Shown: piece after piece, positions 12,942 through 46,444 of the stretch
Position numbering within the stretch: position 1 is the first letter of the stretch
Layout of the letters: every line of letters begins with the position of its first letter
Notes under the pieces: generated by a model
The model's input: the letters and a program-made list of their open reading frames with translations, nothing else
Told to the model about the DNA's origin: nothing
Databases searched by the model: none
Program-made: the position numbers and the translations under genes
Assembly: GCF_000971115.1 (NCBI RefSeq)
Contig: NZ_BBLV01000019.1
Coordinates: 1-64,000 of the forward strand
Reading direction: 5' to 3'
DNA length: 64,000 nucleotides
From: Demequina gelatinilytica
GTDB taxonomy: Bacteria; Actinomycetota; Actinomycetes; Actinomycetales; Demequinaceae

Positions 12942-13646
12942 CTAGACGGTCTCCGAGGCGACGGAGCGCTGCGGCTGCGGCGGATCGAAGCGGTAGCCGA
13001 CGTTGCGCACGGTGCCGATGAGCTGCTCGTGCTCCGCTCCGAGCTTCGCGCGCAGCCGTCGCACATGGACGTCCACGGTGCGGGTGCCGCCGTAGTAGTC
13101 GAAGCCCCAGACCTCCTGGAGGAGCTGGTCGCGCGTGTAGACGCGGCCCGGGTGCTGCATGAGGTACTTGAGGAGCTCGAACTCCTTGTACGTGAGGTCC
13201 AGCGGGACGCCCTTGAGGCGGGCGGTGTAGCCGCCCACGTCGACCGTGAGGTCGCCGGAGGAGAACTCCGCCACCCGGTCGAGCGGGTCGGCGGCGTTCG
13301 CACGACCGATGAGAAGGCGGATGCGCGCCTCGACCTCGGCCGGGGAGGCCTCCGCGAGCACCACGTCCGCCGCGCCCCAGTCGGCGTTGACGATGGACAT
13401 GCCGCCGTCGCGCAGCACCAGCAGCAGGGGCACCGCCACGCCGGTCACCTGGATGAGGTTGCAGTTGTTGCGCGCCTCCACCAGGTCGGTGCGGGCGTCG
13501 ACCACCAGGACGTCCGCGTCCATGGCGTCGAGCATCGCCGACGGCTCGGGCGCCACCACGCGGGTGCGGTGCGACAGGAGCGCGAGCGCAGGCAGGACGT
13601 CAGCCGCGCCGTCTCCTGACGGCGTGAGCACGAGCAGGTCTGCCAT
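12942..13646 (-). CDS. glnR: Nitrogen regulator GlnR (orphan OmpR-type)
   Basis: A 234-residue regulator that follows Streptomyces GlnR throughout: LLVLTPSGDGAADVLPALAL at the N-terminus, ADWGAADVVL, SPAEVEARIRLLIGRA, and the winged helix DLTYKEFELLKYLMQHPGRV..TRTVDVHVRRLRAKLG..GTVRNVGYRF. Asp50 is kept, but the acidic pocket at residues 7-9 is replaced (LTP), as in known GlnR proteins that do not work by classical phosphorylation. The ATG is chosen over a GTG two codons upstream because GGAGG lies 5 nt before it. Known GlnR controls ammonium assimilation and transport genes; none is adjacent. Confidence 0.9.
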   Translation of the reverse strand: MADLLVLTPSGDGAADVLPALALLSHRTRVVAPEPSAMLDAMDADVLVVDARTDLVEARNNCNLIQVTGVAVPLLLVLRDGGMSIVNADWGAADVVLAEASPAEVEARIRLLIGRANAADPLDRVAEFSSGDLTVDVGGYTARLKGVPLDLTYKEFELLKYLMQHPGRVYTRDQLLQEVWGFDYYGGTRTVDVHVRRLRAKLGAEHEQLIGTVRNVGYRFDPPQPQRSVASETV

Positions 13647-40452: not shown

Positions 40453-40720
40453 ACCGCGAGGCCCCCGGTGTTGGCAGTCACCAGGGGCCTCGCGTATCGG
40501 TCGGGACGACGTTGGCAGCCGCCGCCCCGAGGGGGACGAGCCGAGAGGCGTCCGCGGCCCTGCTCCGGCCCGGCCGAAGCCGGTCATCAGATCCGGAGCC
40601 TGCCGGTCCGACCCGTCCGTCGCGGCCCCTCCGGGAGGTGGGGAGGGAACGCGAGCGATGGACGGGCCGACCGGCGACCATGGGCGCCTCTCGGCTCGGG
40701 ACCCCTGGGGGGGTGGGGGC
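40453..40720 (-). ncRNA. Candidate structured non-coding RNA
   Basis: No credible gene lies in this stretch, but it is full of pairing. An outer 14-bp stem joins CGAGCCGAGAGGCG (40537-40550) with its perfect complement (40685-40698). Inside lie CCGGTC..CCCGTCC with GGACGGG..GACCGG and a GCTCCGG..CCGGAGC stem-loop. The 3' end on the minus strand is the hairpin 40455-40494. A putative promoter lies upstream on the minus strand: the repeat box at 40746-40766 and a -10-like TATTGAT at 40727-40733. It resembles no RNA family I know (not RNase P, tmRNA or SRP). The strand is inferred from the promoter. Confidence 0.42.
40455..40494. terminator. Bidirectional terminator hairpin
   Basis: CGCGAGGCCCC and GGGGCCTCGCG form an 11-bp perfect stem, with GGTG/CACC pairing further in. 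It begins 6 nt after the LysR stop and would end both LysR transcripts and any minus-strand RNA from 40720. Confidence 0.65.
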
Positions 40721-40745
40721 ACTGACATCAATACTCACGACCGCG

Positions 40746-40766
40746 CCTGGGAGAACGCTGGGAGCA
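40746..40766 (-). promoter_or_regulatory. Two-repeat regulator box, copy 1
   Basis: On the minus strand: TCCCAGC, four bases, TCCCAGG; the two CTGGGAG complements are 11 bp apart. The 21 bp match the box at 44208-44228 at 20 positions. The spacing and heptamer fit binding by PhoP-type OmpR-family regulators. A TATTGAT -10-like hexamer lies 12 nt downstream on the minus strand. Confidence 0.6.
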
Positions 40767-40792
40767 GGATGCGAGGTCGCCGGGAGCCTCCC

Positions 40793-40903
40793 TCTCCCCT
40801 GACAGCGCCAACGGATCTCAATGCGACGCGCCGGTGCATCGGCCGTCGTGGGCCGATGCACCGGCGCGTCGTTCGCGTTTCCGTTGCGGCTGTCAGAGAG
40901 GGG
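40793..40903. repeat. R2 inverted-repeat element, copy E
   Basis: Outer arms CTGACAGCGCCAACGGA and TCCGTTGCGGCTGTCAG enclose a perfect 20-bp stem (GACGCGCCGGTGCATCGGCC at 40825-40844 with 40851-40870, 6-nt loop). It ends 2 bp before the stop codon of the Cthe_2159-like gene and can serve as its terminator. The outer arms match copy F at 56505-56610. Confidence 0.7.
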
Positions 40904-40905
40904 CG

Positions 40906-42747
40906 TCAGTCCGCCGTCACGGTGCCGAGCTCGGTGCCGCCGGTGGCCGCGGCGCCCATCACGAGCCCGCCGGCCACCGCGTCGCCCGAGACGGTCGCGC
41001 CGGTCGAGATCGTGTAGCTCTCGCCCGAGACGATCGCGTCGCTGGACAGCACGAGCGACTGCGAGACCTTGCCCGTGGTGAACGTCGCGACCTGGTTGCC
41101 GTCCGCATCGGACACCGTGATCGAGGTGCCCGCCGCGATCGCCGAGGCGAACGTGATGGTGAGCACGCCCTGGCCGTCGGCCTCGGGCGACTCGAGCATC
41201 CCTGCCGCGCCCGACGCCGCAAGGGTGCCGCCCGAGATGGTGAAGGTGCCGTTGGTGTCGATCGCGCCGTTGCCGCTGTTGGTCGGGCCGTCGATCACCA
41301 CGGTGCCGCCGGTCATCGTCGCCGTGCCGTTCGAGTCGAGCCCGTCGCCCTCGGCGTCGATGTACCAGGTGCCGCCGGTGACCTCCAGGTAGCGGCCCTC
41401 GGCCGCCTGGTCCATGCCGCCCATGCCGCCGCCGGGGCCCTCGACCGTGGTCGCGTCGGTGGCGCCGTCGGTCGCGGCATCGGACGATGCGTCGGTCGTG
41501 TAGGCCGCGATGGTCACCGTCGCGGTGGTCGAGGCGGTCGCGTCGGTCGACGTGCTGGTGCCGGTCGTGTCCTCGGTCGAGGACTCGCCGGGGCGACCTC
41601 CGCGGTCGCCGCCCATGCCGCCGCCGGACGGCATCTCGCCGCCCCAGTCCCCGCCGCCCAAGTCGGACGTGCCGGAGGAGGACCCGGAGCTCACGTTGAT
41701 GCCGTCGTCGCTCGACGCGATGGTGCCGGTGCCGCCCGAGAGCAGGATGACGCCACCCTCGAGCCCCTCGTAGGACTCGGAGACGGTCACGGTGCCGTCG
41801 GAGATGTGCAGCACGCCGTCGGTGGTGATGCCGTCGTCGCCGGCAGCGATGGACAGCGTGCCGCCCTCGACGGTGGCCTGGTTGACCGCGTCGATGCCGT
41901 CGACGCCCGACGCGATGTCGAGCGTGCCGCCGGAGATCCACACCACGCCCACCGCGGAGTCCTCGTCGAGCGACTCGTTGGTGGACTTGAGGCCGTCGCC
42001 CTCGGCGTCGACGGTGATGTCGCCACCCTTCACCACCAGGTAGTCCTTGCCCCGGATGCCGTCGTCAGCCGCGGTCACCGTGATGGTGCCCGACTCGATG
42101 ACGATGCCGTCCTTCGACGCGATGCCGTCCTCGGCCACACCGTCGACGTCGAGCGAGCCCTCGCCTGCGATCCAGATGTCCGCGGTCGAGTAGAGCGTCG
42201 CGTTGGGCGCGTCGGACTCCTCGTCGTCCGCGGGCGTCGCGTCGGCGGCGTCGGACAGCGTGTTGGTCGAGCCCTCCTCGAGCCAGATCACCACCTCGTC
42301 CGCTCCCTCGATGTCGAGCGCGGCGGTGTCCGCGGACGTGATGTCCACGCCGTCGAGGATGAGGGTGACGTCCTCGTCGTCGGTCGCGACGACCACCTGG
42401 CCGGCGCTGAGCGTGCCGCTCAGGCGGTAGGTGCCGCCCGCCGTGATGGTGACGACGTCGCCGTCGACGCTCACGCCGTCGCCGCCGGTCGAGCCGGAGT
42501 CGGACAACGTGATCTCCACCGCGTTCTCGAGGTTCGCGGAGGTGTCGAGGTCGTTGACGTCGAGGTCGTCGTACGTGACCTCGGTGAGCTCGGTGGCGGT
42601 GGCCGACGTCGTCTCGGTGGAGGTCGTCTCGGTGGTGGCGCCGGTGTCGGTCGACACCTCGTCGTCGGAGCCCGTGGTGGTCGAGCAGCCGGCGAGGAGC
42701 AGGGTGCCGGCCAGGGCGCCGGCGAGGAACGGGAGGGGCTTGCGCAT
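40906..42747 (-). CDS. Cthe_2159-type carbohydrate-binding lipoprotein
   Basis: A 613-residue surface lipoprotein (lipobox LLLAGC, Cys21) with a Thr/Glu-rich linker and then right-handed beta-helix repeats (DGIASKDGIVIESGTITVTAADDGI, DGIDAVNQATVEGGTLSIAAGDDGI), as in the Cthe_2159 family, reported to bind polygalacturonate and cellulose-like polymers with calcium. A Gly/Met-rich insert (GGDWGGEMPSGGGMGG) interrupts the repeats. Last gene of the DUF4956-VTC operon; in related clusters this place is often held by a CotH-type protein. Confidence 0.82.
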   Translation of the reverse strand: MRKPLPFLAGALAGTLLLAGCSTTTGSDDEVSTDTGATTETTSTETTSATATELTEVTYDDLDVNDLDTSANLENAVEITLSDSGSTGGDGVSVDGDVVTITAGGTYRLSGTLSAGQVVVATDDEDVTLILDGVDITSADTAALDIEGADEVVIWLEEGSTNTLSDAADATPADDEESDAPNATLYSTADIWIAGEGSLDVDGVAEDGIASKDGIVIESGTITVTAADDGIRGKDYLVVKGGDITVDAEGDGLKSTNESLDEDSAVGVVWISGGTLDIASGVDGIDAVNQATVEGGTLSIAAGDDGITTDGVLHISDGTVTVSESYEGLEGGVILLSGGTGTIASSDDGINVSSGSSSGTSDLGGGDWGGEMPSGGGMGGDRGGRPGESSTEDTTGTSTSTDATASTTATVTIAAYTTDASSDAATDGATDATTVEGPGGGMGGMDQAAEGRYLEVTGGTWYIDAEGDGLDSNGTATMTGGTVVIDGPTNSGNGAIDTNGTFTISGGTLAASGAAGMLESPEADGQGVLTITFASAIAAGTSITVSDADGNQVATFTTGKVSQSLVLSSDAIVSGESYTISTGATVSGDAVAGGLVMGAAATGGTELGTVTAD

Positions 42748-42768
42748 GGGGATCGTCTCTCTCAGGTC

Positions 42769-43530
42769 TCAGGCCGCGTGAGCGGCGGTCGTCAGGTGCC
42801 GGCGCAGCGTGCGGGACCACCGGTTCGACGGGAGGTCAGGCTGCAGCGCGGCCAGGGTGGTGCAGTACTTGGAGACGCGGGTGGGACGGATGCCGCGCGC
42901 CCACAGCGCGCGGTCGACGTCGCCTGCCCGCATCGAGGACTTGGTCTCGACGATGAGGGCCCCGCCGAAGTCGATGCTCGGGCCCTCCGCGGAGATGCCG
43001 GTCACACCGGTGTCGACCGTGACGCGGGCTCCGTGCGCCACGAGCGTCGCCCGGCGGTACCGCGTGGTGAGCACCGGGGCGAGGTCGTCGACCGCCGCCC
43101 CGACCTGCGGGAAGGAGGCGACGAACGCGCGGGCCGCGCCCTCGAGGAGGTCCGTCGGAGCATCGTCCGCGAGCCACTCGCGGTGCTTGACCGTCTCGCC
43201 CTTCGGCGAGCGCAGCTTGACCTCGATCGCCCGGCCGCCCGTGTCGAGGTACTCGCGGGTGCGGACCTTGTAGCGGGCCGGCCGCCGGCGCGCGGCGTCA
43301 CGGTACGAGTGGAGCTCCGGGGTGTCGTAGTAGACCGACTCGTAGCCGAAGGAGCGGACCCCGTCGATCTCGAGGGCGCGCAGGCCCTCGACGTCGGCCA
43401 TGACGTCGGCCCACACGGCCGGCGAGACGATGTACTTGCGGTCCACGCGGGTCAGCAGCGCGTACTCGTCCTCGAGCTCGGCGAGCGCGACCGCGGGCAG
43501 CTCCGCCAGGCGGGTCTCCCAGGCGTTCAT
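42769..43530 (-). CDS. VTC-domain polyphosphate polymerase
   Basis: A 253-residue protein with a VTC catalytic tunnel fold: LLTRVDRKYIVSP, ESVYYDTPELHSYRDAARRRPARYKVRTREYLDTGGRAIEVKLRSPKGETVKHR, TTRYRRATLV, IVETKSS and SKYCTTLA. The basic and acidic tunnel residues of this family are present. Eukaryotic Vtc4 makes polyphosphate from ATP; bacterial versions are presumed to act similarly. Its ATG overlaps the stop of the DUF4956 gene (ATGA). Confidence 0.88.
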   Translation of the reverse strand: MNAWETRLAELPAVALAELEDEYALLTRVDRKYIVSPAVWADVMADVEGLRALEIDGVRSFGYESVYYDTPELHSYRDAARRRPARYKVRTREYLDTGGRAIEVKLRSPKGETVKHREWLADDAPTDLLEGAARAFVASFPQVGAAVDDLAPVLTTRYRRATLVAHGARVTVDTGVTGISAEGPSIDFGGALIVETKSSMRAGDVDRALWARGIRPTRVSKYCTTLAALQPDLPSNRWSRTLRRHLTTAAHAA

Positions 43531-44135
43531 CGCGCCACCTCGGCGGCCACGCCCTGGGCGCCGACGCGCTCGACGGTGGGACGCTCGACCTGCGCGTGGA
43601 GCGTGTAGCGGACGTCCACCACGGTCGACTCGTTGAGGAGGTCGACCTTGCGGATGGTCGCGCGGTGGACCGTCGCGCCGAGCAGGGCCTCGAGGTACTC
43701 GCGCGCCCCCTCCTCCGTGGTGAAGGCCTGGTCGAGCACCATCTGCTGCTGGCGGCTGCGGGGCAGCAGGCGCGGGTTGTCACCCACCAGGATCACGCCG
43801 AGCAGCACCGCCATGAGCGTGAAGCTGAGCGACGCGGACAGCGCCGGGAAGCCGCCCAGCAGGCCGATCGCGATGGCCGTGAAGTAGTACGCGATCTCCG
43901 CGTGGTCCATCTCGGTCGATCGCAGGCGGATGATCGAGAGGACCGCGAAGATGCCCATGCCGAAGCCGAGCGAGATGTCCGCGTTGGTCATCGCGTAGGT
44001 CACGCCCATGACGCCCACGTTGATCGACAGGAACGCGACGATGAGGTCGCGGCGGCGATGACGGGGGAAGTACAGGCCGAAGACCATGATGGAGATCGCG
44101 ATCAGGTCGGCGAGGATGAAGGCGTAGACGGGCAT
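43527..44135 (-). CDS. DUF4956 membrane protein
   Basis: A 202-residue protein with about four membrane segments (FILADLIAISIMVFGLYF, LIVAFLSINVGVMGVTYAM, MGIFAVLSIIRLRSTEMDHAEIAYYF, SLSFTLMAVLLGVIL) and a soluble C-terminal domain of about 85 residues. DUF4956 proteins are repeatedly found next to VTC-domain genes, perhaps as membrane partner or channel. First gene of the operon; the divergent response regulator gene lies 189 bp away, with several regulator sites in between. Confidence 0.88.
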   Translation of the reverse strand: MPVYAFILADLIAISIMVFGLYFPRHRRRDLIVAFLSINVGVMGVTYAMTNADISLGFGMGIFAVLSIIRLRSTEMDHAEIAYYFTAIAIGLLGGFPALSASLSFTLMAVLLGVILVGDNPRLLPRSRQQQMVLDQAFTTEEGAREYLEALLGATVHRATIRKVDLLNESTVVDVRYTLHAQVERPTVERVGAQGVAAEVAR

Positions 44136-44182
44136 GGTGACCTCTCAGGTAGGGGGCGCCGGGTCTGCACCCCGTGCCGTTT

Positions 44183-44200
44183 GTTCACCAACAGTTAACC
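44183..44200. promoter_or_regulatory. PHO-box-like direct repeat
   Basis: GTTCACC, four bases, GTTAACC: two heptamers 11 bp apart, close to the GTTCACC repeats bound by Streptomyces PhoP. It lies about 50 bp upstream of the DUF4956 start, and overlaps a possible -10 (TTAACT on the minus strand). Confidence 0.45.
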
Positions 44201-44207
44201 GAGCACA

Positions 44208-44228
44208 CCTGGGAGAACCCTGGGAGCA
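44208..44228 (-). promoter_or_regulatory. Two-repeat regulator box, copy 2
   Basis: Two CTGGGAG heptamers 11 bp apart (44209 and 44220); on the minus strand TCCCAGG, GTTC, TCCCAGG. This is 20 of 21 bases identical to the box at 40746-40766. It lies about 75-95 bp upstream of the DUF4956 operon and about 100 bp from the response regulator start, so it may control either. Confidence 0.62.
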
Positions 44229-44324
44229 CCGCTGGAGTCGGCTGTGACGCCTGGCACCGCCCGTCACGGCCCACGCCCAGGCGCCTCCCAGCGAATCGTG
44301 AGGTTCCACGGCGATACTTGACGC

Positions 44325-45008
44325 ATGCCTGAACGACGCATCCTCGTGATCGACGACGAGGACAACCTCCGCACCATGCTCTGCGCCGCGCTGCGCTACG
44401 CCGGCTACGAGGTGTCCGACGCCGCGGACGGCCAGAACGGCCTCAAGGCCGTGAAGGAGCAGCGCCCCGACCTCATCGTGCTCGACGTGATGATGCCCGG
44501 GCTCGACGGCTTCGCCGTGTGCCGTCGCCTGCGCGAGTCGGGGGACCGCACGCCGATCATCTTCCTCACCGCGCGCGACAGCGCGAAGGACAAGGTCGAG
44601 GGGCTCACCATCGGCGGTGACGACTACCTGCAGAAGCCGTTCAACCTCGACGAGCTGGTCGCGCGCGTCGAGGCCGTCTCGCGCCGCGTCGAGCACGCGC
44701 CGAGCGCGTCCGATGTGTACCGCATCGCCGACCTCGAGCTCGACGACGTGTCGCACCGGGTCACGCGTGCCGGCACGGAGATCCAGCTCTCGCCGACCGA
44801 GTACAACCTGCTGCGCCACCTGCTGCAGAACACCGGCCGCGTGCTGTCGCGCGGCCAGCTGCTCGAGGGCGTCTGGGGCTACTCGCGCGACGACGACCCG
44901 GGCGTGGTGGAGACGTACATCGGCTACATCCGCCGCAAGATCGACACCCACGAGCCCAAGCTCATCCACACGGTCCGCGGCGTGGGCTACACCCTGAGGG
45001 TGTCGTGA
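44325..45008 (+). CDS. PhoP/TcrA-like OmpR-family response regulator
   Basis: A 227-residue regulator. The receiver has ILVIDDEDN and the phospho-acceptor Asp54 in LIVLDVMMPGLDG, then FLTARDSAKDKVEGLTIGGDDYLQKPF. The winged helix is LSPTEYNLLRHLLQNTGRVLSRGQLLEGVWGY..VVETYIGYIRRKID..LIHTVRGVGYTLR. Its pattern is close to Mycobacterium PhoP, which binds heptamer repeats (TCACAGC) with a 4-bp gap; the local boxes have the same layout. It overlaps the kinase gene by GTGA. Confidence 0.9.
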   Translation: MPERRILVIDDEDNLRTMLCAALRYAGYEVSDAADGQNGLKAVKEQRPDLIVLDVMMPGLDGFAVCRRLRESGDRTPIIFLTARDSAKDKVEGLTIGGDDYLQKPFNLDELVARVEAVSRRVEHAPSASDVYRIADLELDDVSHRVTRAGTEIQLSPTEYNLLRHLLQNTGRVLSRGQLLEGVWGYSRDDDPGVVETYIGYIRRKIDTHEPKLIHTVRGVGYTLRVS

Positions 45009-46444
45009 CGGCCCGTGCCGGGCTGACGCTGCGTTCGAGGGTCCTCATCGGCCTCGGGGCCATCGCGGCGATCGCCATCGCGATCTCCATCGTGGTCACC
45101 GCGGTCACCCACACGTTCCTCATGAGCCAGCTCGACGACCGCCTCGCGACGTCCTCGGTGTCGCTGGGCTCGCGCGGCGAGCCGCGCCTGCTCACGGAGT
45201 GCGGCTCGGGCGACACCTCCGGGTCGGAGAGCGACGCCGAGCGCCCGTCGGACGTCTTCCGCGGCTACGTCGACGCCGCGGGAAGCTGCTTCGTCCTGTT
45301 CACCCCGACCACCATGGACGCCGACAACTCGTACCCGGTCCTCGACGACGTGACCATGCCCACCGAGGGCGGCGTGTACCTCACGGTGCCGTCCTCCGAC
45401 GGCGACGACTCGTACCGGGTGCTCGCGCGGCCCGCCAGCTTCGCGTCCGGCGTCACCGAGATCACCGCCCTGTCGACCGAGGGTGTCGAGGCCGCCACCC
45501 ACCGCCTCGTCCTGATCGAGGCGGCCGGCGTCGCCGCCGTGCTCGCGGGGCTCGCGGCCGTCGCGTGGTTCGTGATCTCGCTCGGGGTCAACCCCATGCG
45601 CCGGATGGTCGCGGCCTCGTCCCGGATCGCCGAGGGCGACCTCGACGTGCGGCTCGAGGGCGCCGGCCACGGTTCCGAGAGCGCCGAGCTCGCGACCTCG
45701 CTCAACGCCGTCATCGGGACCCTCACGGCCTCCCTCGAGGAGCGCGAGCGCTCCGAGGCTCGGCTCCGCGAGTTCGTGGCCGACGCCTCTCACGAGCTCC
45801 GGACGCCGCTCACCACCGTGCTCGGCTACGCGGAGCTCTACCGCCGCGGCGCGATCGCGCGCGACGAGGACGTCGCGGACGCATGGCGTCGCACCGAGGC
45901 GGAGGCCGAGCGCATGAAGCGCCTGGTCGAGGACATGCTCACGCTCGCGAAGTACGATGCGGAGCCCCAGCTCAACCCGATCCCGCTCGACCTCGCGCAC
46001 GTGTGCGGCGAGGTGGTGCGCGATGCGACCGCCGCGCGCGAGGGCGTGACGTTCACGCTCGACGCTCCCGAGCCCGTCACCATCGAAGGGGACCCGGACC
46101 GGCTGCGCCAGGCCGTCATCAACGTGGTGACCAACGCCGCGATCCATGGCGGCGACCACGTCACGGTCCGCGTGAGGCAGGATGATGCGCTGGCTCGGAT
46201 CGAGGTTCTCGACGACGGCCCGGGCATGGCGCCCGAGATCGCGGCGCGGGCCACCGAGAGGTTCGTGCGGGGGGATCACTCCCGCGCACGTGCCACGGGC
46301 GGCTCCGGCCTGGGGCTGGCGATCACCGCCGCGATCATCGCGGTGCACGGGGGCACCCTCACGGTCGAGTCGACCGAGGGGGACGGCACCACGGTGACCA
46401 TCGCGCTCCCGGCCGCGCCGGCGCAGCTGTCAGGCGCGCGCTGA
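45005..46444 (+). CDS. Sensor histidine kinase (partner of the PhoP-like regulator)
   Basis: A 479-residue kinase. Two membrane segments flank an extracellular domain of about 120 residues (residues 45-165) with a cysteine pair (TECGSGD, GSCFVLF). HAMP (SLGVNPMRRMVAASSRIAEGDLDVRLEG), HisKA (EFVADASHELRTPLTTVLGYAELYRRGAI; phospho-acceptor His263) and HATPase_c follow (NVVTNAAIHG, GSGLGLAITAAIIAVHGG). The GTG start overlaps the response regulator stop. The last 15 bp overlap the convergent TetR gene. The signal is unknown. Confidence 0.9.
   Translation: MTARAGLTLRSRVLIGLGAIAAIAIAISIVVTAVTHTFLMSQLDDRLATSSVSLGSRGEPRLLTECGSGDTSGSESDAERPSDVFRGYVDAAGSCFVLFTPTTMDADNSYPVLDDVTMPTEGGVYLTVPSSDGDDSYRVLARPASFASGVTEITALSTEGVEAATHRLVLIEAAGVAAVLAGLAAVAWFVISLGVNPMRRMVAASSRIAEGDLDVRLEGAGHGSESAELATSLNAVIGTLTASLEERERSEARLREFVADASHELRTPLTTVLGYAELYRRGAIARDEDVADAWRRTEAEAERMKRLVEDMLTLAKYDAEPQLNPIPLDLAHVCGEVVRDATAAREGVTFTLDAPEPVTIEGDPDRLRQAVINVVTNAAIHGGDHVTVRVRQDDALARIEVLDDGPGMAPEIAARATERFVRGDHSRARATGGSGLGLAITAAIIAVHGGTLTVESTEGDGTTVTIALPAAPAQLSGAR

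Follow-up and report, generated by a model that had tools for sequence, protein, structure and literature searches.

Conserved direct-repeat boxes, candidate operators of a PhoP-like regulator, precede a DUF4956-VTC operon and a probable structured small RNA gene in Demequina

The analyzed DNA of Demequina gelatinilytica, called the window below, comprises 64,000 nt (positions 1 to 64,000 of contig NZ_BBLV01000019.1). The locus described here consists of a regulator gene and a kinase gene on the plus strand, which diverge from the genes for a DUF4956, a VTC-domain and a Cthe_2159 protein on the minus strand, a putative cell-surface/polyphosphate operon. The following features were assigned:

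40455..40494, no strand assigned: terminator-like hairpin with the loop UGCCAAC (as read on the minus strand), which also lies just after the convergent LysR gene
40455..40722, minus: putative structured small RNA of about 270 nt, with the 5′ end placed from the -10 element and the 3′ end at the terminator hairpin
40729..40734, minus: -10-like TATTGA of the candidate small RNA promoter, at a distance of 11 bp from box 1, placed by visual inspection of the alignment
40746..40763, minus: box 1, TCCCAGC-GTTC-TCCCAGG, upstream of the putative small RNA
40906..42747, minus: Cthe_2159 carbohydrate-binding protein (Pfam PF14262)
42769..43530, minus: VTC-domain protein (Pfam PF09359)
43527..44135, minus: DUF4956 protein (Pfam PF16316)
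44183..44200, plus: PHO box, GTTCACC-AACA-GTTAACC, 13 of 14 bases of the consensus
44193-44198, minus: proposed -10 element of the DUF4956 promoter, by eye, overlapped by the PHO box
44208..44225, minus: box 2, TCCCAGG-GTTC-TCCCAGG, facing DUF4956
44275..44303, plus: box 3, triple repeat GCCCAGG-CGCC-TCCCAGC-GAAT-CGTGAGG, facing the regulator gene, last unit decayed
44313..44318, plus: -10-like GATACT, by eye, 6 bp before the regulator ATG
44325..45008, plus: PhoP-like response regulator of the OmpR family (Pfam PF00072 and PF00486; PDB match)
45005..46444, plus: histidine kinase with HAMP, HisKA and HATPase_c domains (domain search)

The short distance between the GATACT element and the start codon suggests that the regulator mRNA may be leaderless.

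A preliminary description of this DNA had pointed out the near identity of positions 40746-40766 and 44208-44228. Indeed, 20 of the 21 bases agree, with a single difference, and the paired heptamers that it had read at an 11-bp period are present in both boxes. The common minus-strand sequence is TCCCAG-S-GTTC-TCCCAGG, i.e., two units with a period of 11 bp. In the whole window, boxes 1 and 2 were the only matches to the 18-mer at up to three mismatches, whereas shuffled windows yielded 0.18, and just one of 100 shuffles reached two. The genome (3.23 Mb in 32 contigs) contains 13 matches at this threshold versus 5 for the backward control. They comprise boxes 1 and 2, one site with a single mismatch (C20:12364) and ten sites with three mismatches. 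A looser pattern (TCCCAG-N5-TCCCAG, up to two mismatches) was dropped as useless, with 223 matches versus 269 for its control. The exact pattern TCYCAG-N5-TCYCAGG was found 78 times in the 31 Demequina genomes that encode the regulator, versus once for the backward control. The boxes are not random. The half site that the preliminary description had noted at 44288 is real, but it does not stand alone; it is the middle unit of box 3, a third box cluster of the locus, which faces the regulator gene. The relatives of box 3 are full boxes facing the same gene; in several genomes, the better-kept ones stop 21 bp upstream of the regulator start. A literature search that covered few subscription journals found no response-regulator operator with a TCCCAGG direct repeat and, among the matches listed, nothing on small RNAs, two-component systems or CotH regulation in Demequina.

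The distribution of the genes and boxes was compared in 37 genomes of the genus, including that of the window. The regulator was found in 31 of them (E <= 1e-70) and DUF4956 in 29 (E <= 1e-20), and in 28 of the latter the two genes are divergent neighbors. The remaining genome with DUF4956 had no regulator match and was excluded from the set of intergenic regions, which included the window and thus comprised 28 regions. At up to two mismatches, a box facing DUF4956 was present in 26 of these regions (0.5 in dinucleotide shuffles), in agreement with the earlier claim that the box at 44208 precedes the DUF4956-VTC operon, and a box facing the regulator was present in 22 (0.47 in shuffles), although the regions are related and the occurrences are therefore not independent events. 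The place and orientation of the boxes are kept across the 28 regions, while regulator identity drops to 69%. Two genomes with the regulator contain no exact box (G007 and G012). The six genomes without a regulator match (G005, G016, G019, G020, G028 and G032) together contain five exact matches, versus three for the control. Three of the five are in G028, where one precedes a gene of the FMN_bind type and another lies in a sigE-like region. As the G028 assembly is 88% complete, the regulator gene may have escaped assembly, or its role may be taken by a paralogue. A link between the boxes and the regulator at 44325 is strongly supported by this comparative evidence.

The resemblance of the regulator to mycobacterial PhoP, claimed before, was borne out by the comparison with solved structures. 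M. tuberculosis PhoP was the best match (1.8e-72), followed by PrrA (2.8e-55) and MtrA (3.1e-51); MprA was not among the matches. A make-up of receiver and winged-helix (Trans_reg_C) domains is common to the Demequina regulator and M. tuberculosis PhoP (PDB 3r0j, 5ed4), and the 7-4-7 direct-repeat geometry of the boxes is, as had been proposed, that of the PhoP site as given in the excerpt of PMC4832192. The systems differ in gene neighbors, in targets and in the sequence of the repeat. The PhoP site is TCACAGC-N4-TCACAGC, whereas the Demequina units read TCYCAGS at equal spacing, with C or T instead of A at the third base. The crystal structure of PhoP with DNA shows base contacts by Asn212, Val213, Glu215, Ser216, Tyr217 and Tyr220, and a water molecule common to Asn212 and Ser216 extends to base 3 of TCACAGC (PMC4832192, in excerpt). 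In the alignment to PhoP, four of the six base-contacting residues are identical in the window regulator. The other two, Gly in place of Asn212 and Thr in place of Ser216, correspond to this water-sharing pair, and base 3 is the one altered in the box. Across the 28 Demequina genomes, Thr is constant at position 216, and position 212 varies between Gly, Ser and Ala. The difference at base 3 alongside the change of residues 212 and 216 would fit a shift in recognition.

Loci outside the genus were also compared, namely 39 actinobacterial loci, one region of which is present twice (L139/L228). A repeat of either type at up to two mismatches precedes the regulator gene in 12 of the 39, and 27 have none. 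As raw counts, the seven loci with Asn212 and a repeat comprise five of the TCACAGG type, with A at base 3, and two of the C type (L231 and L232); the five without Asn212 comprise three of the C type and two mixed ones, so that C occurs in one or both units of all five. Residue 212 was rejected as the sole determinant of specificity, because L231 and L232 combine Asn with C-type repeats and L142 combines Asn with TCCAGG units. As a separate observation, repeats of two or three units, e.g., TCACAGG-N4-TCCCAGG, follow the regulator gene in four of the loci (L139, L140, L145 and L147), about 2.7-2.8 kb into the locus and some 2.2 kb from the regulator start.

The boxes might instead serve another OmpR-family regulator, of the MprA/CseB type that responds to envelope stress, with the PhoP-like gene merely one of its targets. 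sigE has a box in Demequina, and MprAB is an activator of mycobacterial sigE (PMC12113857, in excerpt). The own genome contains 11 Trans_reg_C loci, and boxes occur in G028, where no regulator was matched. However, the remaining five genomes that lack the regulator are at the control level, with two matches versus three, and the recognition helices of the own paralogues differ, where they are readable. The repeats of the 12 loci outside Demequina precede orthologues of the 44325 regulator itself. Furthermore, the box is unlike the published MprA motif of C. glutamicum, TKTTAAGAAM, the species to which this comparison extended. We therefore regard a different regulator as unlikely and keep the 44325 protein as the candidate regulator of the boxes. 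Its best paralogue in the own genome is 45% identical. The window itself contains a gene for an OmpR-type DNA-binding domain (12987-13205, minus strand), whose product shares about 28% identity with the regulator in the matched part.

The genes downstream of boxes were considered for 59 exact matches from 18 genomes. The regulator locus accounts for 24 of these matches, and the other 35 are spread over the rest of the genomes. A downstream gene could be assigned to 26 of these 35. The most frequent one was sigE, with seven cases: the own copy, which scores above the NCBIfam NF007229 cut-off, L182, L191, L201 and L209 (blastp), and L177 and L203, for which the start was read. Four boxes precede genes for an HlyD/MacA-like adaptor (L003 and three by blastp), three precede CotH lipoprotein genes (L053 and L186 by Pfam, L176 by blastp), and four precede genes for a short CotH protein (L183 and L019 by Pfam, L200 by blastp, L197 by eye). 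Cthe_2159 genes account for three cases (L204 by Pfam, the others by blastp), FMN_bind genes for two, and DUF3500 and cyclophilin genes for one each. One exact box (L180, G024:C8:175780) precedes the gene of another OmpR-like response regulator, as judged by eye, hinting at a possible regulator cascade. The own genome has five exact boxes: the two in the window and those of an adaptor gene (C20:12364), a short CotH gene (C28:43887) and sigE (C29:141677). Apart from these assignments, L069 (G025) and L198 (G024) have an exact box in a similar sequence context common to both. CotH, polyphosphate polymerase and DUF4956 genes are accessory genes of Gram-positive pel clusters (PMC7112168, in excerpt). 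These families go together in Demequina as well, where the CotH genes lie elsewhere and have the same box; as a difference, Cthe_2159 proteins belong to the Demequina set.

The regulatory picture of the locus drawn in the preliminary description was right about the boxes and the regulator but missed the PHO box at 44183-44200. The consensus of the PHO box bound by S. coelicolor PhoP is GTTCACC-N4-GTTCACC (PMC4415409 and PMC4832192, both in excerpt). The Demequina copy has equal spacing, but it sits over the proposed -10 element of the VTC operon. At up to two mismatches, this consensus was found in 11 of the 28 intergenic regions, versus 0.04 expected and none on the other strand; at up to three mismatches, it was found in 15, versus 0.35 expected and two on the other strand. 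A family search of two candidate phosphate regulators yielded no match above the cut-off. Because the PHO box covers the proposed -10 element, the simplest reading is repression, and this suggests that a phosphate regulator may repress the VTC operon at low phosphate.

The box at 40746 had been described as preceding a region without a gene. This was not upheld, because a conserved segment, probably a structured RNA, lies downstream of it. The segment of about 270 nt is common to 9 of the 28 Demequina loci, and a box core that is exact or has one mismatch lies upstream in all nine genomes that have it; the -10-like TATTGA reads TATGGA in several relatives. The segment comprises a C-rich hairpin at the 5′ end, a basal stem that is invariant and bears a branched core, and two hairpins with the loop UGCCAAC, one of them the terminator-like one. 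The predicted fold of the window RNA has a z-score of -4.8. In the alignment of the nine sequences, 97.7% of the 754 pair cells are standard. Changes on both sides were found in 14 of the 84 pairs, versus 5.5 in shuffles, none of 500 of which scored as high, and 1-4 in slid structures; a score for further pair types was equaled by 34 of 500 shuffles. In the same alignment, no two-sided change was found in the 20-pair basal helix, i.e., the main stem. Both copies of CTGCCAAC in the window lie within the putative small RNA, and 20 of 100 shuffles likewise had two copies.

A known Rfam family was rejected as an explanation, since searches with 12 kb and with the 451-b region gave only sub-threshold matches, none near a gathering score. 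A conserved reading frame was rejected as well, as neither the length nor the location of ORFs of at least 20 amino acids is constant across the nine sequences. When 59 relatives were searched with a covariance model, the RNA was recovered from 9 of them, exactly those whose sequences had gone into the model; with 50 candidates scored per genome, diverged copies may have been missed. Similarly, an exact scan with a 21-base core of a collection of 84,980 species, to which diverged copies are invisible, found eight Demequina records in addition to the window. Two further loci, G021 (L120) and G026 (L118), also carry a box after the Cthe_2159 gene, in the position of box 1, and the strong hairpins behind it differ in sequence from those of the nine; one of the hairpin loops in G021 (L120) also holds CCACCUCCC.

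It might be argued that the segment is nothing but a 3′ untranslated region, belonging to the DUF4956 operon or to the convergent LysR gene, and that its hairpins are terminators or stability elements. It does lie between convergent genes, its last hairpin follows directly after the LysR stop codon, and this hairpin is kept in G026, which lacks the RNA. Yet in nine genomes the box and the -10-like element are found directly upstream at a fixed spacing, and in the window a strong inverted repeat, seen by eye, lies between the operon stop codon and box 1. The minus strand is also favored by an excess of G-U over A-C cells (52 versus 3), a hand count that is biased by the prediction of the structure on the minus strand. 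An untranslated region is thus improbable, and the segment after box 1 is probably a small RNA gene that no Rfam family describes. A chance origin of the boxes, or repeated DNA that has no function, would agree with the looser pattern, which is not commoner than its control. This reading is scarcely credible, since the exact pattern outnumbers its control by 78 to 1 in 31 genomes, and place and orientation are conserved in the orthologous regions down to the lowest regulator identity.

We consider it likely that the boxes are operators through which the 44325 regulator activates its own gene, the DUF4956 operon, the small RNA and a dispersed regulon for the surface and envelope stress. A tandem dimer of the regulator would bind to the two 7-bp units separated by a 4-bp spacer. 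With the -10 elements placed by eye, the inner unit ends 9-11 bp before the -10 element in the three window promoters, which would allow class II activation of the PhoB/PhoP type. Class II activation by PhoB has a comparable placement of the operator relative to the -10 element. The regulator would thereby drive its own gene together with the kinase gene, the DUF4956-VTC-Cthe_2159 operon, the small RNA of about 270 nt downstream of this operon and, elsewhere in the genome, sigE, the HlyD/MacA-like adaptor, CotH and further Cthe_2159 genes. Under phosphate scarcity, a phosphate regulator bound to the PHO box would repress the VTC operon. The small RNA probably acts in trans, and its exposed C-rich (CCUCCC) or UGCCAAC loops would pair with mRNAs, by analogy with the loop of Mcr7. 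In M. tuberculosis, Mcr7 is PhoP-dependent and restricted to tubercle bacilli, and a loop-mediated block of tatC translation has been proposed (PMC4038636, in excerpt). The Demequina RNA would resemble it as a lineage-restricted, structured intergenic RNA behind a PhoP-type operator. The likeness is one of context, and the Demequina RNA has about 270 nt, versus 350 nt for Mcr7 (PMC4038636, in excerpt).

The broader proposal is plausible, but we stop slightly short of calling it likely: a code shift in the PhoP family (TCACAG to TCYCAG, with residues 212/216) would command a new family of small RNAs together with a DUF4956/VTC/CotH/Cthe_2159/sigE program that is gated by the PHO box. The analysis points to a PhoP-type regulon in Demequina, a genus that is not known to include pathogens. 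The change at one position of the recognition helix versus one base of the operator would provide a testable rule. The sharing of a predicted regulator with sigE may offer a clue to the function of DUF4956, VTC, CotH and Cthe_2159 proteins, which are poorly understood families. The confinement of the RNA to one set of Demequina species would parallel Mcr7 in M. tuberculosis and, if true, would hint at a repeated recruitment of lineage-specific RNAs by PhoP-type systems.
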